Source: a virus. From it: a stretch of DNA of 33,743 bases. The notes beneath the pieces are model-generated. The model saw only the letters and a program-made list of their open reading frames with translations, did no database searches and was not told the origin of the DNA. Position 1 is the stretch's first letter, and every line of letters begins with the position of its first letter. Positions 1,857 through 33,743 of the stretch are shown here, piece after piece. A program made the position numbers and the translations under genes. The stretch is taken from positions 1 through 33,743 of the IMG/VR virus record IMGVR_UViG_3300046331_000333. One strand, written 5' to 3'.

Positions 1857-1972
1857 AAGAGTTAAGCGAGTATTACACTAAAAAGGCTTATAGGGATGAT
1901 TTGGTTAGGTTTATGGAGTGTTATAACGGTACTCATGTTGGCTTAGATTTTTTAACGATTAAAAATAGATAA
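1853..1972 (+). CDS. Small hypothetical protein (39 aa)
   Basis: Short frame MKELSEYYTKKAYRDDLVRF... coupled to the upstream gene by ATGA. Its last third is the left half of an attC-like site (TTATAAC box at 1921 and the arm after it), so its C-terminus is written in recombination-site DNA. Only coupling and an open frame support it. Confidence 0.4.
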   Translation: MKELSEYYTKKAYRDDLVRFMECYNGTHVGLDFLTIKNR

Positions 1973-2124
1973 AATGAATATAGAATATAAAGAAGAAACA
2001 GGGTACGATGTAGGTGTTTATTGTGAATATGCTGAAAATGTACAAAGTATTTGGTATTTTCATGAACATTATGTACATTGGTTGGAACAGAAGATTGAAG
2101 CATTGAGCCAACATGATGTTATGC
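1921..2124 (+). other. attC-like recombination site 1 (204 bp, with a coding loop)
   Basis: Left box TTATAAC (1921-1927) followed by an arm containing CATGTTGGCTTA; the right arm TTGAGCCAACATG (2103-2115) pairs with it (11 of 12) and leads through AT into GTTATGC (2118-2124). Box-arm-loop-arm-box is the attC plan (R''-L''-L'-R'). The loop is very long and holds the start of the gene at 1974. It is the least certain of the seven sites because its boxes are only partly complementary and the preceding cassette is not delimited. Confidence 0.5.
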
Positions 2125-2225
2125 GGAGTGCCTTTAAAGAGGCTTATGATAAGTGGCATGAAACAGAAAATGACGGAGAACTTGGAAATTGGTTGTTTGC
2201 AAAATCAAAAGGCATTACGACATAA
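1974..2225 (+). CDS. Hypothetical protein starting inside an attC loop (83 aa)
   Basis: Unrecognised 83-residue protein, acidic and aromatic-rich (YFHEHYVHWLEQKIEALSQHDV). Its start codon follows an A-rich leader that shares TTTTTTAACGATTAAA with the leader of the gene at 3481. The first ~48 codons lie in the loop and right arm of attC-like site 1. The rest lies in the short cassette that begins at the GTT of 2118 and ends in the attC at 2220, so the frame crosses an expected recombination point. The stop is within the next attC left box. Confidence 0.55.
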   Translation: MNIEYKEETGYDVGVYCEYAENVQSIWYFHEHYVHWLEQKIEALSQHDVMRSAFKEAYDKWHETENDGELGNWLFAKSKGITT

Positions 2226-2284
2226 CGTTTTGCAACTTGGCGAACCTAAACACAGTACGTTATTTCGCCAAATTGCTGTTATGT
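2220..2284 (+). other. attC-like recombination site 2 (65 bp)
   Basis: ACATAAC (2220-2226) and GTTATGT (2278-2284) are perfect reverse complements. Inside them GCAACTTGGCGAA pairs with TTCGCCAAATTGC with one mismatch, leaving a ~19-base loop. Size, box sequence and imperfect central stem all match integron attC sites. The inner part is nearly identical to the site at 5195. Confidence 0.8.
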
Positions 2285-2346
2285 ATCAGTATGGCGAGTT
2301 TAACGATAAACTAAAATAGAATATAAATTTAAAAAAGAAAAGAGCG

Positions 2347-2586
2347 ATGGAATTTTCAAAATTTACAGAATGTACAAAAGATTTACATTCAAAAACAATA
2401 TTGACAGCAAATGTTATACTTGACAAAGAAACAATATTAAATGCTTTAAAAGGTGATTCAATTTGTATTTTTGGAAAACTTTATAAAGTACCTGAACAAC
2501 AATTTTTATTATGTTTATTAAATAAGCATTTCGGATTACAAACAATAGAATTTGAAGAAATAAAAATAAATAAAGATGAATACTAA
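2347..2586 (+). CDS. Hypothetical cassette protein (79 aa)
   Basis: First gene of the cassette that starts at 2279. The 79-residue product begins MEFSKFTECTKDLHSK and has hydrophobic and acidic stretches but no motif I recognise. An A-rich leader (TTTAAAAAAGAAAAGAGCG) precedes the ATG. It overlaps the next gene by 11 bases, so the two form a two-gene cassette, which suggests cooperating products (for example an antitoxin/toxin or modifier pair; pure inference). Confidence 0.55.
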   Translation: MEFSKFTECTKDLHSKTILTANVILDKETILNALKGDSICIFGKLYKVPEQQFLLCLLNKHFGLQTIEFEEIKINKDEY

Positions 2587-2761
2587 AAGAATAAAATTAG
2601 AAGATTGTCCAACTTGTAAAGCTAAAAAATCTATTAAAATAACTTTCGGAAATGTTACAGAAAATGGATTTAATATTGAGTTTAAAAAATGTACTGAATG
2701 TAAAAATAATCATTCTTACAACTCAAAATATGAACTTGTAAAATATGAAGTAGTTGTGTAA
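2576..2761 (+). CDS. Small zinc-ribbon-like protein (61 aa)
   Basis: Two CxxC knuckles, CPTC near residue 11 and CTEC near residue 39, spaced about 25 residues apart with beta-type sequence between them, are what a zinc ribbon looks like. Such small ribbons bind nucleic acid or other proteins; the partner here is unknown. Second gene of its cassette, start overlapping the previous gene by 11 bases, with no gene between it and the attC at 2828. Confidence 0.6.
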   Translation: MNTKRIKLEDCPTCKAKKSIKITFGNVTENGFNIEFKKCTECKNNHSYNSKYELVKYEVVV

Positions 2762-2827
2762 AGTGCGATGGCTTTTCTTTTTCCTTACGATGAATATTAA
2801 TCGAAACGAGAATGTTAGCCATATTGT

Positions 2828-2953
2828 ACATAACGGTTCTCGGCTTGGCGAAGTTGCCGAACACAAAACTTCATTAGAATTACAAATGATCAAATTAAAA
2901 ACAAATGTTAAATAGTAGTACAGAACGGCAATTTTGCCAAACCGATGTTAGCA
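2828..2953 (+). other. attC-like recombination site 3 (126 bp, with a coding loop)
   Basis: The left box ACATAAC (2828-2834) is the exact complement of GTTATGT at 2278-2284, the start of the same cassette, as expected for an excisable cassette. The arm CGGCTTGGCGAAGTTGCCG pairs with CGGCAATTTTGCCAAACCG (16 of 19, with G-T wobbles). The right box is GTTAGCA (2947-2953). The ~65-base loop carries an A-rich leader and the ATG at 2905. Confidence 0.75.
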
Positions 2954-3423
2954 CCAGTACTTCCAAGTATCGTGATTGGGATATTTTGGAAGATTTGCCA
3001 GAAGGTTGGTTAATTGATAAAACGGCTGGTTCTCCTGCTCCAAATACCGTTTTTATTACAAATGGCAAAAGCGTTTTAAATGGTCAAAAAAGGGCTTTGT
3101 TAAAGGTAGAAGCAAAACGGGATATAAATATCTCAAAAAACGAGATAGTAAAACATCATATTGTTGAAGCCAACAAAATGATAGAAAAAACGGAAATTCC
3201 GATTTTCCCTGCAAAAACTGTAAATGATTTGGCACGTCTAAAATTCAAAGAGCAACTTTTGAAAGAAATTATGTTTGATTTAATGGTTTGCGAAATCGAA
3301 AAGTGGGACAAAAAAGAGTACATAAATGAAATAAAAAAATTATTGAATAGCATCGATACATCAAATAAAAAGAAAGTCCACACGGCAAGTCTTCCAGATT
3401 TGTTTAGTGCGGTAGGTCTTTAG
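2905..3423 (+). CDS. Hypothetical cassette protein (172 aa)
   Basis: Unrecognised 172-residue protein. The core from about residue 23 (YRDWDILEDLPEGWLIDKTAG) looks like a folded domain, followed by a helical, charged second half. The ATG at 2905 lies in the loop of attC site 3 after an AAATTAAAAACA leader, and the first 16 codons are the right half of that attC. There is no good start after the attC. The frame therefore enters the cassette from the neighbouring site, and the start is supplied by upstream DNA. A TTG at 2980 is an alternative internal start. The stop is seven bases before the next attC box. Confidence 0.6.
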   Translation: MLNSSTERQFCQTDVSTSTSKYRDWDILEDLPEGWLIDKTAGSPAPNTVFITNGKSVLNGQKRALLKVEAKRDINISKNEIVKHHIVEANKMIEKTEIPIFPAKTVNDLARLKFKEQLLKEIMFDLMVCEIEKWDKKEYINEIKKLLNSIDTSNKKKVHTASLPDLFSAVGL

Positions 3424-3429
3424 TATTGG

Positions 3430-3634
3430 TGCTAACGGTTACAGCTATACGAAGATTTTTTAACGATTAAATAAACAGAAATGGAATTACCAAAAGATTT
3501 AAGCTGGGAAGTAACAACCAACGAAAACGGTGTCGAAATGATTACAATGCCGAAATTCAAAATGAATGAAATAGTAGAATATTTGAAGTACGCAGATACC
3601 GAGTTAAAAAAATTGCGTGTAGCTGATGTTGTAG
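3430..3634 (+). other. attC-like recombination site 4 (205 bp, with a coding loop)
   Basis: The left box TGCTAAC (3430-3436) is the exact complement of GTTAGCA at 2947-2953. The left arm GGTTACAGCTATACG matches the left arm of the site at 4235. Its partner, TTGCGTGTAGCTGATGTT at 3613-3630, matches the right arm of that site (TTGCGTATAGCTGGTGTT). The right box is GTTGTAG (3628-3634). The gene at 3481 begins in the loop. Confidence 0.65.
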
Positions 3635-3738
3635 GGCAAAGCGAACAGTTTAATTGCTTAGGTGGGAATTATGCCAAAGGAATTAAACCTTGTTCAGAAT
3701 GGTGCGGTGAAGATATATGCCAAAAACCAAGCAATTAA
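3481..3738 (+). CDS. Hypothetical protein starting inside an attC loop (85 aa)
   Basis: Unrecognised 85-residue protein. The N-terminal half (LPKDLSWEVTTNENGVEMITMPKF begins it) is encoded in the loop and right arm of attC site 4. The C-terminal half, which has four cysteines (NCLGG, PCSEWCGEDIC), lies in the next short cassette. The start is an ATG after the leader TTTTTTAACGATTAAA also seen before the gene at 1974. The distance from ATG to the recombination box is 147 bases here and 144 there. The cysteine-rich end could bind metal. Confidence 0.5.
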   Translation: MELPKDLSWEVTTNENGVEMITMPKFKMNEIVEYLKYADTELKKLRVADVVGQSEQFNCLGGNYAKGIKPCSEWCGEDICQKPSN

Positions 3739-3743
3739 ATTGC

Positions 3744-3871
3744 CTACAACGTTTCTCGCCTAGGCTTTCGCCGCCTATTCGATTCACTTTGTAAATATAG
3801 CAAATTTTCCATTTCACGCACAAATCTTTTTAGATACACTTGAAGGCGTTGGAGCTTAGGCGATGTTATTG
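3744..3871 (+). other. attC-like recombination site 5 (128 bp)
   Basis: The left box CTACAAC (3744-3750) is the exact complement of GTTGTAG at 3628-3634 (8 of 8 with the next base). The arm TCGCCTAGGCTTTCGCCGCC pairs imperfectly with GGCGTTGGAGCTTAGGCGA. The right box is GTTATTG (3865-3871). The AT-rich ~70-base loop has no start codon that I would call. Confidence 0.65.
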
Positions 3872-4234
3872 TTCTGGTGGCTCACCATGTTTGAGGTTTT
3901 AAGCATTTAGTTTTTCTTACAAACTGCTTTTTTTTAAATACATTTTCGATGCTGGGCGATTATGGTTTTCGGAAGTTTTTACACATTTTTCAACTGTTTC
4001 GGGCTTGAAAATGTCATTCGCTTGTGATACACGTTCAGGAGCCGACATTTTTGTTTGTTAGTCCGAGTGTAATCGTTACGTACGATTTGACATTTTTCAA
4101 CTGTTTCGGCATTGATCCTGTGTTTCTCTTGCTCAAAACTTCCGAAAACCGACCGAATATTATTTTTTACACTTTAAAAACTGTTAAAAAAAGCAGAAAT
4201 TTTTCTTCAAAGTGATGAACGTTCAGCCACTGGA
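3872..4234 (+). repeat. ORF-less cassette with inverted and direct repeats
   Basis: This stretch between two attC-like sites has no convincing gene. It holds a perfect 16-bp inverted repeat, GGTTTTCGGAAGTTTT (3964-3979) and its complement (4135-4150). Outside this, CTGCTTTTTTTT (3924-3935) faces TTAAAAAAAGCAG near 4185. Between the arms, ACATTTTTCAACTGTTTCGG occurs twice (3983-4002, 4090-4109). The whole insert could fold as one large stem-loop or carry a structured RNA. A 63-codon frame at 4024 crosses the repeat and looks accidental. Confidence 0.6.
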
Positions 4235-4301
4235 CCATAACGGTTACAGCTATACGTCAGGTTTTGTTTTTCACAAAACTTGCGTATAGCTGGTGTTAGC
4301 A
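4235..4301 (+). other. attC-like recombination site 6 (67 bp)
   Basis: Left box CCATAAC (4235-4241), arm ACAGCTATACGTCAGGTTTTG, short loop, arm CAAAACTTGCGTATAGCTGG, right box GTTAGCA (4295-4301). The arms pair with one extrahelical base and small mismatches, the asymmetry typical of attC. The left box differs by one base from the complement of its cassette start (GTTATTG at 3865). Confidence 0.8.
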
Positions 4302-4393
4302 GTAGTACGGATTTAAACCACAAATGCTCATTCGGAGAACTGAACCTTTTTCTTTTCTTTTTTTGAGCGGTGGGGAAATATTAAAATAAAATT

Positions 4394-5188
4394 ATGACAA
4401 TAGATTTAAGATACGGAGATACAATAGAACAAATGAAATTGATACCTGATAAAAGTATTGATGCAATTATTTGTGATTTACCTTACGGAACAACCGCTTG
4501 TAAATGGGACACGATAATACCATTTGACAAACTTTGGGAACAATATGAAAGGATTATAAAAGATAATGGAGCAATAGTTTTAACAGCACAGCAACCATTT
4601 ACAAGTGCTTTGATAATGAGTAATACTAAAATTTATAAATATAATTGGCATTGGAACAAAGTAAAACCATCTTCATTTTTTAATGCTAAAAATGCACCTA
4701 TGAAAAAGATTGAGGATATTTGTGTTTTTAGTTTTGGTGCAATGGCAAACGGCTCTAAAAACTTAATGAAATACAACCCACAAGGATTGATTGAATGTGG
4801 GAAAATACGACCACCAAAAAATGATAGTGTACCAAATCAAAGCACAATAGGAAAAAGACCATCAAGGGCAAATGCTTACAAACAAGAGTTTACAAATTAC
4901 CCTACTGATTTAATTGAGTTTTCATTTGAGCAAAAACCAATACATCCAACACAAAAACCAATTTCTTTGATGGAATATTTGATATTGACATACTCAAATG
5001 AAAACGATACAATACTTGACAATACTTTTGGAAGTTGCACTACTGGAATTGCTTGTATAAACACAGATAGAAACTTTATCGGAATTGAGAATAATATGGA
5101 TTATTTTAATATTTCTTTAAAGAGGGTGGAAGAAAAAAGAAAAGAAAAAGAATTTAACGTAGTAACTTCATTCGGAGATGGAATGTAG
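4394..5188 (+). CDS. Orphan DNA adenine/cytosine-N4 methyltransferase (cassette gene)
   Basis: A 264-residue SAM-dependent N6-adenine or N4-cytosine DNA methyltransferase. The catalytic motif comes first, as DLPYGTT (residues 28-34, a DPPY variant). HPTQKP is at 184-189 and the SAM-binding motif DNTFGSCTTG at 209-218, followed by FIGIE at 228-232. This catalytic-before-SAM order is that of beta-type enzymes, and the length is normal. Motif I is unusual (FGSCTTG in place of FxGSGTT). No restriction gene is adjacent. It is the only gene of its cassette (4296 to the attC at 5195). Likely role: protecting phage DNA from host restriction or altering regulation. Confidence 0.88.
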   Translation: MTIDLRYGDTIEQMKLIPDKSIDAIICDLPYGTTACKWDTIIPFDKLWEQYERIIKDNGAIVLTAQQPFTSALIMSNTKIYKYNWHWNKVKPSSFFNAKNAPMKKIEDICVFSFGAMANGSKNLMKYNPQGLIECGKIRPPKNDSVPNQSTIGKRPSRANAYKQEFTNYPTDLIEFSFEQKPIHPTQKPISLMEYLILTYSNENDTILDNTFGSCTTGIACINTDRNFIGIENNMDYFNISLKRVEEKRKEKEFNVVTSFGDGM

Positions 5189-5194
5189 TATTAC

Positions 5195-5259
5195 TGCTAA
5201 CGTTTTGCAACTTGGCGAACCTAAACACAGTACGTGTTTTCGCCAAATTGCTGTTATGC
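5195..5259 (+). other. attC-like recombination site 7 (65 bp)
   Basis: The left box TGCTAAC (5195-5201) is the exact complement of GTTAGCA at 4295-4301, the start of the methyltransferase cassette. The arms GCAACTTGGCGAA and TTCGCCAAATTGC pair as at 2220. The right box is GTTATGC (5253-5259). The inner 51 bases differ from the site at 2220 at only two positions. This is the last recognisable site of the array. Confidence 0.8.
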
Positions 5260-5340
5260 TTTGTTGCGTATTTTAACATAAATCTACAATCGAAGCAATA
5301 ATTTGTTCTTTTTTTGTGCGTTGGAAACCAACTAATTAGA

Positions 5341-5384
5341 AAATAATTTAAAAATAATTTAAAAATAATTTAAAAATAATTGTT
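5341..5384 (+). repeat. Tandem 11-bp A-tract repeat upstream of promoter
   Basis: Three exact copies of AAATAATTTAA plus a partial fourth, period 11 (close to one helical turn), ending just before the promoter -33 box at 5391. Phased A-tracts bend DNA and can act as UP elements. A similar array precedes the promoter at 31261. Confidence 0.85.
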
Positions 5385-5390
5385 AAAAAG

Positions 5391-5422
5391 TTTGTGTATA
5401 TAATATATATAATGTATATTTG
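5391..5422 (+). promoter_or_regulatory. Bacteroidota-type promoter for the 5453 operon
   Basis: TTTG (5391-5394), 20-base spacer, TATATTTG (5415-5422): a close match to the TTTG / TAnnTTTG consensus of Bacteroidota sigma factors. The transcript would start near 5429, with a short A-rich leader before the ATG at 5453. Confidence 0.8.
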
Positions 5423-5452
5423 TATCAGTTAAGAATTAAAACAATATAAATT

Positions 5453-5644
5453 ATGACAACTCAAAATACAAACAGAAGCGAATTTAGATTAGTAGAACAA
5501 AAAGATAAATATGAAGTTGTTTCTTTTAATATTTACGAAACTGAAATTATAGACGGAAAAAGATGGAATAACGGAGTAATTTATTATTTTGATAATTTGG
5601 CACAAGCACAAAGTAAATTAAACTTTTTAAAAGCAATCAATTAA
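5453..5644 (+). CDS. Small hypothetical protein (63 aa), first gene of early-type operon
   Basis: Unrecognised 63-residue protein. It is directly downstream of a strong promoter and the leader AACAATATAAATTATG. The same leader pattern precedes the first gene of the operon at 31319, so this is probably a highly expressed early gene. The sequence (YETEIIDGKRWNNGVIYYFDNL, then AQAQSKLNFLKA) suggests a beta hairpin plus one helix. Confidence 0.65.
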   Translation: MTTQNTNRSEFRLVEQKDKYEVVSFNIYETEIIDGKRWNNGVIYYFDNLAQAQSKLNFLKAIN

Positions 5645-5646
5645 TT

Positions 5647-5889
5647 ATGAAAAAACTAATACAAGATTTAGAAAAATCATTAAATGAAGTTTCTAAAGAA
5701 AGAACAAGACTTGAAAGTAAACTAAATAAAATAGGTTTTACTGTTGGAGATAATGAAGCAAAAGAAACAATTTTAAAAAGTGAAATAAATTCAAAACTTT
5801 TTTGGCTTGGTGCTATTTCAGGTGAGTTGAAAAATAATATTGAAGAATACAAAGATTTATTAGAAAAATATAACTTAATTAAAATATAA
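5647..5889 (+). CDS. Small coiled-coil protein (80 aa)
   Basis: The N-terminal 30 residues (LIQDLEKSLNEVSKERTRLE and on) form a heptad-patterned helix, and the C-terminal half is also helical and acidic (NNIEEYKDLLEKYNL). No family recognised. It follows the previous gene by two bases and should be co-transcribed. Confidence 0.65.
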   Translation: MKKLIQDLEKSLNEVSKERTRLESKLNKIGFTVGDNEAKETILKSEINSKLFWLGAISGELKNNIEEYKDLLEKYNLIKI

Positions 5890-5893
5890 CAAA

Positions 5894-6094
5894 ATGGTAA
5901 TAACTACAATGAATAAGACTTATGTTCAAATGATTGAAAAAAATGTTTATCATTTAACTTTTGCAAATATTGAACACCCGAAACTACCACAATTAGTAAT
6001 TTCAATATCAGAAATTGAAGCTGGATTTATTAAATCAGTTTTTAATAATAGCAAAAAGACAGGTGTTTTTGAAGAAAACGAAGAATGGTTTTAA
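5894..6094 (+). CDS. Small hypothetical protein (66 aa)
   Basis: Unrecognised. It starts MVITTMNKTYVQM; the second ATG (5909) could be the true start. Mixed alpha/beta sequence with an acidic tail (FEENEEWF). It is the third gene of the operon behind the promoter at 5391, four bases after its neighbour. Confidence 0.55.
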   Translation: MVITTMNKTYVQMIEKNVYHLTFANIEHPKLPQLVISISEIEAGFIKSVFNNSKKTGVFEENEEWF

Positions 6095-6096
6095 AA

Positions 6097-6165
6097 ATGA
6101 AAAATTGGCAAAATCAAATATTACAAACAACAAATGGTATTAAATTGAAATATCCTTTTATTTAA
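6097..6165 (+). CDS. Possible 22-aa peptide
   Basis: A short frame MKNWQNQILQTTNGIKLKYPFI three bases after the previous stop, filling an otherwise empty 80-base gap. Only position supports it. Confidence 0.25.
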   Translation: MKNWQNQILQTTNGIKLKYPFI

Positions 6166-6174
6166 AAGAAAAAT

Positions 6175-6351
6175 ATGAAGAAACTAATTGATATTCCCGA
6201 AGAAATCGTACAAGATTTAAAAATACTTGCAATCAAACAAAACAAGGATTTAAAGAATTTCATTCAAGATGAATTATTTTCACTTGTGCGAGGGGAGAAA
6301 AAAGAACAAAACACGGTAAATGTTAACTCAAAGCTAAAATCTAAGCAATAG
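6175..6351 (+). CDS. Ribbon-helix-helix-like small protein (58 aa)
   Basis: Residues 1-38 have the pattern of an Arc/MetJ ribbon-helix-helix: a short strand (KKLIDIP), then helices EEIVQDLKILAIKQN and DLKNFIQDELFSLV joined by a short turn. The tail is basic. Such proteins bind operators as dimers or serve as antitoxins. With no toxin gene beside it, a small transcription regulator of the phage early region is the better guess. Confidence 0.65.
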   Translation: MKKLIDIPEEIVQDLKILAIKQNKDLKNFIQDELFSLVRGEKKEQNTVNVNSKLKSKQ

Positions 6352-6410
6352 AGCATAACTACTTAACATACGCTACAAATTGTCAAATCAATACTTAAAA
6401 CCAACACATT

Positions 6411-9339: not shown

Positions 9340-10780
9340 AGAATGTCAAGTAATACAAGTCAAGGCTTTAAAGTCGCTTGAATTTTTCACACGTTATTTT
9401 TTCAAAGAAAAATTTAACACAAAATTCATTGTAGCACCTCATCATAAAATCATTATTGAAACACTCGAAAATATAGCACGTGGAGAATTGAAGCGTGTTA
9501 TCTTTAATATGCCACCAAGGTACGGGAAAACTGAATTAATAGTTAAAAATTTTATTGCATGGTGCTTAACCTTAAATGATTCTGCAAAATTTATTCATTT
9601 GTCGTATTCCGATAGTTTGGCACTCGATAATTCAGAGGAAATAAAAGACCTTTTGATTAGTGATTATTACCAAGAAATTTTCACAAAAACCAAAATCAAA
9701 AAAGATTCAAGGGCTAAAAATAAATGGTACACAGAGAGTAATGGCGGTGTTTTGGCGAGGTCGTCAAGTGGGCAAGTAACGGGTTTTGGAGCTGGTAAAG
9801 TCGATGAAGAAGATGAGCAGGAATTTATTAGTGAATTAGAACAATTACAATCATTTGGGGGTGCAATTATTATTGATGACCCAATTAAACCCGACGATGC
9901 TACAAGCGACGTAATAAGGGATAAAATAAATCTCAAATTTGAAACAACAATAAGAAACCGTACCAATTCCCGAAACACTCCCATTATTATTGTAATGCAA
10001 AGGCTTCATGAAGAGGATTTGAGCGGTTATTTAATGGAATTGGAGCGTGACGAATGGACTGTTTTATCAATGCCAGCAATAAATGAAGACGGCACCCCAT
10101 TATGGGAACACAAACACAATTTAATTGACTTAAACAAAATTAAGAAAGCGAATGAATTTGTATTTGAAACTCAATACATGCAAAATCCAACTCCAGCAGA
10201 AGGATTATTATTTGAAAAATCATCATTGAATTACTACAATGGTGCTGAATTAGACTTAAAGAAAGTTGATTTTGTTAGTTCCTTTGTTGATGTTGCAGAT
10301 GAGGGAGACGATAATCATTGTGTGCCTATTGGAATGAATATTGAAGAAAAAATATACATTCACGATGTTTTATTTACCAAAGAAGGAACGGATAAAAACG
10401 TACAGTTAACGGCGAATTTACTAAATAAATATAATCCTGAATGGACACGTGTTGAGAGTAATATGGGTGGGTCAATGTACAAGCAATTATTAGAACCTTT
10501 ATACGATGGCCAGCTACTACCAATCAGGGCAAAATCAAACAAAACAACACGTATTTTAACACTTAGTGGATTTATAAAAAAGTACTGTTACTTCCGTAAT
10601 GATTACGAGGTGAATAGTGATTACTATTTATTTATGCAAAACCTAACAAGGTATATGAAGAACGGAAAAAACAAACATGATGATGGTGCTGATGCTATGC
10701 ATGGAATTTGTAATATGATTAGAAAATTCTATCCACATTTGTACGATGACTTTGTAATAATTGGAGATAGGGAAGATTAA
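9326..10780 (+). CDS. terL: Terminase large subunit (packaging ATPase-nuclease)
   Basis: 484 residues with both expected domains. The ATPase has Walker A PPRYGKTE (63-70) and Walker B AIIIDDP (180-186), with acidic residues after it. The RNase H-like nuclease has D322 in FVDVADEGDD, E378 in ESN and the HDDGADAMHG aspartates (451-460). The motor pumps DNA into the prohead and cuts concatemers. It follows TerS with a 14-base overlap and is complete. A terminator-like hairpin follows at once, because the portal gene beyond it is inverted. Confidence 0.95.
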   Translation: MKSIEECQVIQVKALKSLEFFTRYFFKEKFNTKFIVAPHHKIIIETLENIARGELKRVIFNMPPRYGKTELIVKNFIAWCLTLNDSAKFIHLSYSDSLALDNSEEIKDLLISDYYQEIFTKTKIKKDSRAKNKWYTESNGGVLARSSSGQVTGFGAGKVDEEDEQEFISELEQLQSFGGAIIIDDPIKPDDATSDVIRDKINLKFETTIRNRTNSRNTPIIIVMQRLHEEDLSGYLMELERDEWTVLSMPAINEDGTPLWEHKHNLIDLNKIKKANEFVFETQYMQNPTPAEGLLFEKSSLNYYNGAELDLKKVDFVSSFVDVADEGDDNHCVPIGMNIEEKIYIHDVLFTKEGTDKNVQLTANLLNKYNPEWTRVESNMGGSMYKQLLEPLYDGQLLPIRAKSNKTTRILTLSGFIKKYCYFRNDYEVNSDYYLFMQNLTRYMKNGKNKHDDGADAMHGICNMIRKFYPHLYDDFVIIGDRED

Positions 10781-10782
10781 AA

Positions 10783-10814
10783 AAGGGTGCAAAGCTATCA
10801 ACTTCTACACCCTT
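10783..10814. terminator. Terminator between convergent terL and portal genes
   Basis: AAGGGTG (10783-10789) and CACCCTT (10808-10814) form a 7-bp stem with an 18-base loop. On the minus strand the stem runs into six T's, so it best terminates the portal transcript. On the plus strand the tail is AATTAT and it would be weak. Confidence 0.65.
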
Positions 10815-10861
10815 AATTATAACCTAAAAATTCAATATATGGAATTGCAAATATAATAAAA

Positions 10862-12082
10862 TTATATTAATCCAAGCATTTCTTTTAATTTATTTTTGTC
10901 AAAAGTTGGATCTTGTGAAAGTGTGTTATAAGCGTCTGCTTTCATTTTGATAACTTCCGCTTTTAGCTTTTCGTTGTCTTGCATAGCTTCAATGTGCGAA
11001 TAATCTAAACTAATCCACTCCCCTTTTAAGTCAAGTCCTAAGTACTGGGTTAATTTGTAGGTATAATCTTCTGCGTAAGGAATGATAGTATCTTGGTATG
11101 TCATTCGCTTAGCTTCAAGTAAATTACTGAATGTTGCGCTTTTATCCTCGCTAAACAATTCTTTTTTCATTCCGTAAACGTCGATTATCTTTTGAAAATC
11201 TGCGTTGATTTCCTCGAATAACATTAAGTCCTTAGTAGGATAAGTGAAAGGTGTCCAAGTCAAACTACTTGAAGTTAACATAACCTTTGATTTACCCGAT
11301 TGAGTTCCGTAATCCTTCAAATATTGATCTTCAATTCTTTTGCGCTCCTTATCGTTTAATGGAATACCTCCTTCGCCATCTTTCGCCTGATTGGACAACA
11401 TACCAATTGCACCTCGTTCATTTATTAAAACGTTACGATAACCATAAGCCCCTCGAATATTTGATATTGCCATTTGAAGCGAATGTAATGGCGATTGTCC
11501 TAAAATTGGATTTCGTGGGTCTGTAATGCGTGAATGAATAACGTCTTTTACCTCGTAGCTTTGGCGTGTTCCGTCGTAATTTCGTAAGATGTATTCTTTA
11601 ATTATTTCCTCAATTTTGTATTGATTGTATATTTTTCCCGTTGGTATGATTTCCATTCGGTCAGCTGGCAAGTTATACATAACCTTTGGTTCTGAGGTGC
11701 TGAATGGTCTAATTCCATACGTAAAAGAATTTCCAAATAATGAAGTGTGTATCAACTCTTCCATTAGCCACTCGTTACGGGATTGCAACGGATTAGGATT
11801 TTCAAGTAGTTTAACGATTGGACTATTTTCAACTTCTACTGCTTTGCTACCTTGCAATTTGTAATGTTTAAATACTCCATTGCTATACATTTGAGCCTTG
11901 CGAGATATTACAGCGTATAATTCAGCAGTAGTATTATATAAATGCGCTTCTTCATTTGTTATTGAAACGTATTGAGGGGATTTTCCGTTAAAAATCTGAT
12001 TAGCGTGCATGATTCTCGTTTGAGTATATGCGTCTTTTCCTCTAAAAAGACTACCCAAAAATTGGAGTGGTGTAAAATTCAT
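10862..12082 (-). CDS. Portal protein (HK97 type)
   Basis: 406 residues. The N-terminal part (QIFNGKSPQYVSITNEEAHL, then ELYAVISRKAQM, then PIVKLLENPNPLQSRNEW), a DVIHSRITDPRNPILGQSPL region and the EDKSATFSNLLEAKRMTYQD helix follow the HK97-family portal pattern. It forms the dodecameric ring at the unique head vertex and docks TerL. The gene lies in the right order between terL and the protease but on the opposite strand to every other gene here. It therefore needs its own promoter (RC of 12106-12113 gives TAACTTTG) and has its own terminator. Length and ends are normal, so it looks intact. Confidence 0.9.
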   Translation of the reverse strand: MNFTPLQFLGSLFRGKDAYTQTRIMHANQIFNGKSPQYVSITNEEAHLYNTTAELYAVISRKAQMYSNGVFKHYKLQGSKAVEVENSPIVKLLENPNPLQSRNEWLMEELIHTSLFGNSFTYGIRPFSTSEPKVMYNLPADRMEIIPTGKIYNQYKIEEIIKEYILRNYDGTRQSYEVKDVIHSRITDPRNPILGQSPLHSLQMAISNIRGAYGYRNVLINERGAIGMLSNQAKDGEGGIPLNDKERKRIEDQYLKDYGTQSGKSKVMLTSSSLTWTPFTYPTKDLMLFEEINADFQKIIDVYGMKKELFSEDKSATFSNLLEAKRMTYQDTIIPYAEDYTYKLTQYLGLDLKGEWISLDYSHIEAMQDNEKLKAEVIKMKADAYNTLSQDPTFDKNKLKEMLGLI

Positions 12083-12105
12083 TGTTAAAATTTAAACATT
12101 TAATG

Positions 12106-12135
12106 CAAAGTTATAACTATTTTTTAATAACTTTG
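12106..12135. promoter_or_regulatory. Symmetric divergent promoter pair
   Basis: CAAAGTTA (12106-12113) and TAACTTTG (12128-12135) are a perfect 8-bp inverted repeat. Each is a TAnnTTTG -7 element, one driving portal leftward and the other the head operon rightward. The 14-base AT-rich centre leaves the -33 regions overlapping, so the two promoters probably compete or share a regulator. Confidence 0.65.
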
Positions 12136-12151
12136 TGAATATTTTAACATT

Positions 12152-12241
12152 ATGAATGATAAATTAACTCCTGAACAAATTAAGAAACTTAAAAAAGATA
12201 AGTTAAAAACTGTTCAGACTAACCAAATTGTTAAGAAATGA
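12152..12241 (+). CDS. Small basic peptide (29 aa)
   Basis: MNDKLTPEQIKKLKKDKLKT followed by VQTNQIVKK. It is the first frame after the rightward promoter and is coupled to the next by ATGA. Lysine-rich helix, function unknown. Confidence 0.45.
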   Translation: MNDKLTPEQIKKLKKDKLKTVQTNQIVKK

Positions 12242-12384: not shown

Positions 12385-12987
12385 ATGAAACAAACGGGAA
12401 TATATAAAATAACAAATCCTAATGGTAGAGTTTACATAGGTCAAAGCGTTGATATAAAAAGACGTTTTAAAACTTATTTAAATAACGTACCAAACGTCAA
12501 GACGTCTATTAAACTATATCGTTCTCTTATTAAATATGGTAGCGAAAATCATAAGTTTGAAATTTTAGAACTTTGCGATATAAATGAATTAAATAATAGA
12601 GAAAGATATTACCAAGAATTATATGAAGCAACTAGTAGTTTAAATCTTAATTGCATTTTAACTGAATGCGATGGAAAAAAAAGAGTTGTAAGACCAATGA
12701 CAGAAAAACAAAAAAAACAAATTAGCTTAGTTCATAAAGGTAAAAAATATAGCGAAGAAACTAAAAATAAAATAAAATTAGCTAGGGCAAAACAAATAAT
12801 AACAGCAGAACATAAACAGAAAATATCTGATAATTCTGGGTCTGCTAGATTAGTTTTAAATCTTCAAAATGGAATATTTTATAATTCTGCAAAAGAAGCA
12901 TCAAATGCTCACAATATGAAAGCTAATGAGCTTGTTTGTAGGTTGATTGGAAGAATAAAAAATAATAGTAATTTAAAATACGTATAA
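12385..12987 (+). CDS. GIY-YIG homing endonuclease with NUMOD3 and NUMOD1 modules
   Basis: The catalytic GIY-YIG domain is in the first ~95 residues (GIY at 5-7, YIG at 17-19, Arg26/27, catalytic Glu73 in NRERYY). A NUMOD3-type DNA-binding repeat follows (TEKQKKQISLVHKGKKYSEE, residues 106-125, and on). The C-terminus is a NUMOD1-like helix-turn-helix (VLNLQNGIFYNSAKEASNAH at 157-176). No intron or intein surrounds it, so it is a free-standing homing endonuclease that would cut cognate DNA in competing phages and spread itself. It fits between neighbours without spare bases. Confidence 0.9.
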   Translation: MKQTGIYKITNPNGRVYIGQSVDIKRRFKTYLNNVPNVKTSIKLYRSLIKYGSENHKFEILELCDINELNNRERYYQELYEATSSLNLNCILTECDGKKRVVRPMTEKQKKQISLVHKGKKYSEETKNKIKLARAKQIITAEHKQKISDNSGSARLVLNLQNGIFYNSAKEASNAHNMKANELVCRLIGRIKNNSNLKYV

Positions 12988-33477: not shown

Positions 33478-33481
33478 GATT

Positions 33482-33743
33482 ATGATTAAAATAGAAATTA
33501 AAAACAGATTTACAGGTAGTGTTATTTTTGAATATTTAAAAGAAAAAAACACAATCAAAGATACAGTTGAAGAAGCTGTAAAAGTGAGAGCAAACCTAGA
33601 GGGAGCAAACCTAGATGGAGCAAACCTAGATGGAGCAAACCTAGATGGAGCAAACCTAGTGAGAGCAAACCTAGTGAGAGCAAACCTAGAGGGAGCAAAC
33701 CTAGTGAGAGCAAACCTAGATGGAGCAAACCTATATGGAGCAA
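33482..33743 (+). CDS. Pentapeptide-repeat protein, 3'-truncated by the window
   Basis: After a ~33-residue N-terminal part ([20 protein letters not shown]) the protein becomes a run of A-N-L-x-x units ([15 protein letters not shown] and variants), the pentapeptide-repeat pattern that folds as a right-handed square beta helix. The frame is open to the window edge. Some such proteins mimic DNA and inhibit gyrase; in phages most are of unknown role. The ATG at 33482 is preceded by ATTAAGATT. Confidence 0.8.
33588..33743 (+). repeat. 15-bp tandem DNA repeat within the pentapeptide gene
   Basis: The unit (G)AGCAAACCTAG plus four variable bases recurs every 15 bases to the window edge. AGCAAACCTA is invariant in almost all copies, and only the two codons between units vary. 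Confidence 0.85.

Follow-up and report, generated by a model that had tools for sequence, protein, structure and literature searches.

The window, that is, the whole stretch of 33,743 bp analyzed here (IMG/VR virus record IMGVR_UViG_3300046331_000333), is a tailed-phage genome or a fragment of one with a G+C content of about 33%. Left of all its packaging and structural genes it harbors seven sites (S1 to S7) resembling the attC recombination sites of integrons. Outer boxes with AAC on the left and GTT on the right, each with variable flanking letters, were found in all seven. The original prediction had described an integrase-less integron-type cassette array in a phage, which was borne out in kind: the seven sites and all their boxes were confirmed, and the window contains no recombinase gene. 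The right end of the array had to be shifted, however, from 5259 to 6353, where an attI-like anchor lies; the array thereby gains a unit from 5195 to 6352. Judged from the sequence, the array appears to span positions 1921 to 6353 and to comprise seven units.

All features of the array except the anchor are given for the plus strand. The left box of S1 (1921 to 2124; boxes TTATAAC and GTTATGC) is the left end of the array; the arms of S1, TCATGTTGGCT and AGCCAACATGA, enclose a long loop containing the start of the open reading frame (ORF) of unit 1 (1974 to 2225; 83 amino acids, aa), which stops at the left box of S2 (2220 to 2284; ACATAAC and GTTATGT). Unit 2 holds two overlapping ORFs of 79 and 61 aa (2347 to 2761). 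Within S3 (2828 to 2953; ACATAAC and GTTAGCA) starts the 172-aa ORF of unit 3 (2905 to 3423), which stops just before S4 (3430 to 3634; TGCTAAC and GTTGTAG; long loop). The 85-aa ORF of unit 4 (3481 to 3738) likewise starts within S4 and stops just before S5 (3744 to 3871; CTACAAC and GTTATTG). Unit 5 (3744 to 4234) contains no convincing ORF, as had been predicted, and is followed by S6 (4235 to 4301; CCATAAC and GTTAGCA). Unit 6 encodes an N6/N4 DNA methyltransferase (4394 to 5188; PF01555, 1.3e-21), rightly described before as an orphan, with no restriction partner in the array. S7 (5195 to 5259; TGCTAAC and GTTATGC) opens unit 7 (5195 to 6352), in which small ORFs of 63, 80, and 66 aa, together with a further short ORF that terminates at 6350, occupy positions 5453 to 6350. 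The anchor (6353 to 6373, minus strand) forms the right end of the array; its plus strand reads GCATAAC followed directly by TACTTAACATACGC. The anchor box GCATAAC is the exact complement of the right box of S7, and next to it stands the anchor motif of viral arrays, AACTAYNNNATAYACGC. The string GCATAACTA occurs once in the window, at this position. With an exact box and the viral anchor motif, the site has what would be expected of the attI of a complete integron.

The window was scanned with a signature consisting of AACG[GT]T, complementary arms, and NTGTTR within less than 230 bp. S1 to S7 were the only matches; shuffled sequence gave 0.03 matches per 33.7 kb, and DNA of related phages a single match in 1.1 Mb. 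Boxes complement each other far more often than expected by chance: of the 24 variable box positions compared between neighboring sites, 22 are complementary, as compared to 11 of 28 within single sites, and only 4 of 720 rearrangements of the sites chained equally well. The complementarity of neighboring boxes, on which the earlier proposal had been founded, was thereby confirmed.

Ten attC sites from other contigs, with the window and the sequence families of S2, S6, and S7 excluded, were used to train a covariance model. On the plus strand this model matched exactly 2220 to 2284, 4235 to 4301, and 5195 to 5259, with 44.9, 41.9, and 41.1 bits (E about 1e-8), that is, the short sites on which the original prediction had staked its case. 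The next match in the window scored 17 bits, and in 600 kb of control DNA a single match, of 23 bits, was obtained. The attC stem showed strong compensatory change, with 9 of 11 arm pairs varying on both sides and 94% of cells paired; the arms are imperfect inverted repeats conserved in structure, not in sequence. DNA folding, which had been proposed as a check, gave clear stems for S2, S6, and S7 and weak ones for the long sites with their extended loops.

Hairpins of this kind might be transcription terminators or RNA structures, since they form stems and several of them lie between genes. The chaining of the boxes and the exact cassette changes described below speak against this; furthermore, the scanner and the covariance model are specific, Rfam gave no match in the window, and several genes start within a hairpin. 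The probability of this explanation is practically negligible.

The same sites occur in other phages. The S6 arm was found in 14 further viral contigs, mostly as part of the same, almost unaltered 67-bp attC, boxes included, with different genes after it; its exact 19-mer was present in no genome of the bacterial collection. The left 31 nt of S3 are identical in 16 other viral contigs. A broader two-armed pattern was detected in viral stretches (at least 119) and in bacterial stretches (at least 120); nearly all of the bacterial matches listed belonged to Bacteroidota. Boxes were exactly chained in 67 of 107 pairs of neighboring sites in viral contigs, as compared to 9 after shuffling; the rate of exact chaining, 56-78%, is a lower bound because the pair counts include gaps in which the strict scanner misses a site.

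Gain and loss of whole cassettes were found between cultured Flavobacterium phages. Members of Muminvirus and Lillamyvirus carry about 9 to 15 attC each, mostly chained box to box. In all ten cultured phages examined the array begins with GTTTAAC, and at its right end all ten share AACTACAATATTACATG; the four letters before the right-end AAC vary (TTAT, GCAT, GTAT, TGGT) and match the last cassette. Phage sniff9-2 has one cassette fewer than lillamy9-2, and its hybrid attC consists of GTTT from the first site and AAC plus all the rest from the second; hence, the exchange point is the left box. The remaining large breakpoints between the genomes of the cultured phages also lie at or adjoin left boxes. 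The array variants sought in related phages were found in the cultured Flavobacterium phages and not in the nearest relatives of the window phage, which, when searched for an empty site, showed neither an array nor a convincing anchor.

Ordinary homologous recombination between similar hairpins of co-infecting phages could produce some such changes, given that some attC of an array are near copies of each other and that phages recombine freely. Against this, the two sites joined in sniff9-2 as compared to lillamy9-2 differ inside and the switch falls within TAACGTT, and a constant anchor flank acquires different 4-nt boxes. We regard this route as quite unlikely.

The annotated methyltransferases of the Muminvirus and Lillamyvirus phages lie within the arrays. 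Differences in these methyltransferases have been tied to 1,000-10,000-fold differences in plating, and phages plating poorly on LMO6 lacked one specific methyltransferase (PMC7077304). The same phages were compared here; integrons are not mentioned in that paper. The genome comparison made here shows that exchangeable cassettes are the seat of these methyltransferases, and cassette-borne methyltransferases are a possible mechanism for the plating differences measured in these phages.

The attC of the family present in the window are asymmetric: the spacer next to AACG measures 5-6 nt and the one next to TGTT 1-2 nt, so the direction of the genes can be read relative to the site. In 129 of 133 viral loci (129:4), and in 10 of 10 cultured phages, the AACG side lies in front of the genes; in bacterial loci the genes run in the opposite direction (112 of 117 loci; 5:112). 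Among 247 viral attC, ORFs cross the right box in 129 and the left box in 10, and an ORF starts inside the site in 134, as compared to 9 of 258 in bacteria. If exchange takes place at the AACG/CGTT box, this polarity makes a bacterial cassette a gene followed by its attC and a phage cassette an attC followed by its gene. The textbook arrangement, in which a gene carries attC at its 3' end, was accordingly found in bacterial arrays, whereas in phages attC lies at the 5' end.

The window follows the phage pattern. The ORFs from 1974, 2905, and 3481 start in S1, S3, and S4, and each stops at the next left box. When units are delimited by left boxes, each ORF assigned to the array falls within a single unit, whereas with right-hand boundaries, as first drawn, ORFs 1974-2225, 2905-3423, and 3481-3738 each straddle one. 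The claim that each attC closes the preceding gene was replaced: the site opens its unit, and exchange is placed at the left AAC box. The suspicion that S1 and S4, about 200 bp long, are false sites because ORFs cross them was rejected, as ORF starts inside viral attC are common. The opposite polarity of phage and host suggests two cassette pools separated by expression.

These observations bear on the idea that the array is ordinary cargo, a fragment of a host chromosomal integron that was captured once as a cluster of attC sites lacking integrase (CALIN) and is now inert. In its favor, CALINs are generally interpreted as integrons in decay, the window has no recombinase, and the same attC families are present in host genomes. 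Against it, gene polarity is reversed relative to host arrays, and the S6 arm is shared by viral contigs and missing from the bacterial collection; in addition, 22 of 24 box positions still match, an attI-like anchor is present, and cultured relatives change their cassettes. This origin is thus very unlikely.

We searched for the enzyme that may move these cassettes. IntI scoring above the NCBIfam cut-off was detected in 0 of 50 attC-bearing phage records and in 1 of 48 attC-bearing genomes. The single case, the metagenome-assembled genome (MAG) G047 labelled Chloroflexi OLB14 (locus L344), encodes a true IntI with insert (451 bits) together with Bacteroidota-type attC; this MAG may be a binning mixture. 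The host search that had been suggested therefore turned up the same attC families and, in nearly every genome, no integron integrase; it would mostly fail because the recombinase associated with these sites lacks the IntI-specific insert. Nearly all attC-bearing genomes encode a tyrosine recombinase, usually of about 350-390 aa and IntI-like in two stretches. The insert (the additional domain, with the I2 helix), which in IntI lies between these stretches, is missing from all 38 recombinases aligned. Scores of recombinases of this type were 199-204 bits against TIGR02249 (cut-off 265) and 214-217 bits against NF040815 of NCBIfam (cut-off 220). Their closest solved relatives are XerA/XerC-like proteins and IntI4. 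In a phylogenetic tree the Xer clade was set apart at 100/100, with IntI represented by a single long-branched row.

In many Bacteroidota genomes the recombinase genes and the attC sites are located together. Within up to about 10 kb of recombinase genes, 42 attC were counted in 593 kb (22 of 36 regions), as compared to 0 attC in 395 kb (20 regions) around xerC/D-like genes of the same genome set. In a class-wide sample, the recombinase was present in 13 of 13 genomes with the strict attC pattern, 3 of which had been preselected for attC, and in 84 of 149 genomes overall. In host loci a site usually like ATATATACTAGTTRNNN lies about 92-114 nt past the stop codon of the recombinase gene; in seven loci its box exactly complements the first attC box detected, and the site in L407 shows the matching box but otherwise departs from the motif. 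Both its position and the logic of the system make this site an attI. Four of the insert-less recombinase ORFs (L404, L406, L409, L418) have long N-terminal extensions (ORFs of 468-627 aa) that resemble repeats of the approximately 70-aa N-terminal module of the common form. The first cassette after the recombinase in L404 (Flavobacterium silvisoli), in an array of nine attC, is a 509-aa ORF at 10645-12174 with the reverse-transcriptase-like motif RYRDDY, possibly a defence gene.

An insert-less recombinase of the same group is also encoded on seven viral contigs with attC. In all seven, the recombinase start is immediately preceded by a site like NNNNAAC followed by TAYTATATATA, which mirrors the attI of host loci; genes with their attC come first, attI second, and the recombinase last. 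In three of the seven the attI box exactly complements the last attC detected. A matched anchor was found in 34 of 136 viral loci, as compared to 0-7 with permuted boxes. Phages without a recombinase gene, such as the window phage and the cultured phages, still retain the anchor.

The insert-less recombinase might be a mere neighbor, with a classical, insert-bearing IntI of some host shuffling the array. IntI1 was shown to use an attC of a Polaribacter phage in Escherichia coli (PMC9892861), and a true IntI does occur in one attC-bearing MAG. On the other hand, 47 of 48 attC-bearing genomes and all attC-bearing phage records are devoid of an IntI above the cut-off, and attI and array adjoin the insert-less recombinase. 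We consider the classical enzyme unlikely to be responsible. The proposal that the recombinase belongs to an insertion sequence (IS) element or is cassette cargo was rejected for the main clade, as attI lies at a nearly fixed distance and the cassettes follow directly; it may still apply to a second subclade described below.

We therefore consider it very likely that the window contains an integron-type cassette array of a kind found in Bacteroidota phages, whose attC-first units are exchanged at the left-box AAC. At the level of sequence this reading is carried by the sites and their chaining, the left-box crossovers in cultured relatives, the reversed polarity, anchors that stay constant except for their 4-nt box, and the joint occurrence of recombinase, attI, and attC in chromosomes and seven viral contigs. 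The enzyme behind the exchange is probably the overlooked IntI/XerA-like tyrosine recombinase without the IntI-specific insert, presumably acting on folded, single-stranded attC. Because the window has no recombinase, it would have to be supplied in trans; in the window phage, exchange may thus be carried out by a recombinase from the host or from another, co-infecting phage, which, at the AAC box, would join an attC either to attI or to a second attC. Cutting and joining would take place at AAC in the left box, which reads GTT on the minus strand, and would leave matched boxes after every loss or gain of a unit. New units would be added next to the anchor, an order that we infer, and units would be lost through attC-attC exchange. 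Since each unit would bring along a leader, in many cases with the start codon within the hairpin, its expression could follow the direction of the phage genes. The benefit may consist in exchanging methyltransferases and small genes, probably as a means to counter host restriction.

Several points weigh against this reading. The window has no recombinase, although the record may be incomplete, and its anchor is a looser copy of the attI of recombinase-bearing phages. S1, S4, and S5 fold weakly and are not matched by the covariance model of short sites. Gain and loss in the window are inferred from other phages because its nearest relatives have no array. A second recombinase subclade (L397, L402, L403, L411, L412, L413, L416, L421, L422) has no attI motif past the stop codon and is often located near attC; it may do something else. 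Finally, recombination by an insert-less recombinase was neither observed here nor reported in a paper.

The basic kind of array is known, as attC arrays in phages, including a methyltransferase-bearing Bacteroidota phage, have been published (PMC9892861). According to the main text of that paper, CALINs occur in phage genomes, including that of Polaribacter phage P12002L (Qi et al. 2023), and share with the array described here the integrase-less attC arrays of virulent phages and the methyltransferase cassettes. Five of six phage attC tested were recombined with attI1 by IntI1, and recombination of a folded single strand was demonstrated for one Polaribacter phage attC with IntI1. The divergent direction of attC in P12002L is noted there only as mosaicism; the main text describes no insert-less recombinase, no such phage attI, and no systematic difference in polarity, and it does not mention Flavobacterium phages. 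In the main texts of the open-access literature, neither an insert-less recombinase beside attC nor a phage attI nor mirror polarity was found.

Chromosomal integrons with IntI (Vibrio; Salinibacter ruber, PMC9024848) likewise have attI, attC, chained boxes, and tandem, mostly promoter-less small genes. They differ from the system described here, in which the recombinase has no IntI-specific insert, the host recombinase reads with the cassettes and has attI past its stop codon, and phage genes are reversed relative to attC. The recombinase has the same fold and sequence type as XerA/XerC-like and integron-like simple tyrosine recombinases (PMC8138268; NF040815), which in the consulted text of the former are not described as adjoining attI and attC arrays. 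A complete integron in Bacteroidetes proper is reported in the open-access literature only for Salinibacter. It seems likely, with less assurance than for the array itself, that Bacteroidota and their phages possess a second integron lineage, in which a recombinase without I2 would act on folded attC and a separate, mirror-oriented phage cassette pool would be shuffled in trans and shared largely apart from host cassettes. Surveys requiring the IntI-specific domain would call these arrays integrase-less CALINs and overlook the recombinase. The I2 helix is viewed as the innovation enabling single-strand recombination (PMC7790495); if the insert-less enzyme recombines attC, either this view needs revision or a form close to the state before that innovation survives.

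Regarding the cargo of the window, the methyltransferase of unit 6 shares about 90% DNA identity with mymlan6-1. The second ORF of unit 2 (2576 to 2761; 61 aa, Cys-rich) has Cys pairs reminiscent of a zinc ribbon. All its Pfam matches are below threshold. Among them is the Lar restriction-alleviation family, with 15.5 bits at a cut-off of 28.6; a Lar-like protein would fit anti-restriction cargo.

Outside the array, a gene for a portal-like protein (10862 to 12082) lies on the minus strand, with nearly all its neighbors on the plus strand. The adjoining ORF at 12385 to 12987 resembles, by eye, a GIY-YIG homing endonuclease. A coding sequence for pentapeptide repeats (33480 to 33743) continues past the right end of the record.

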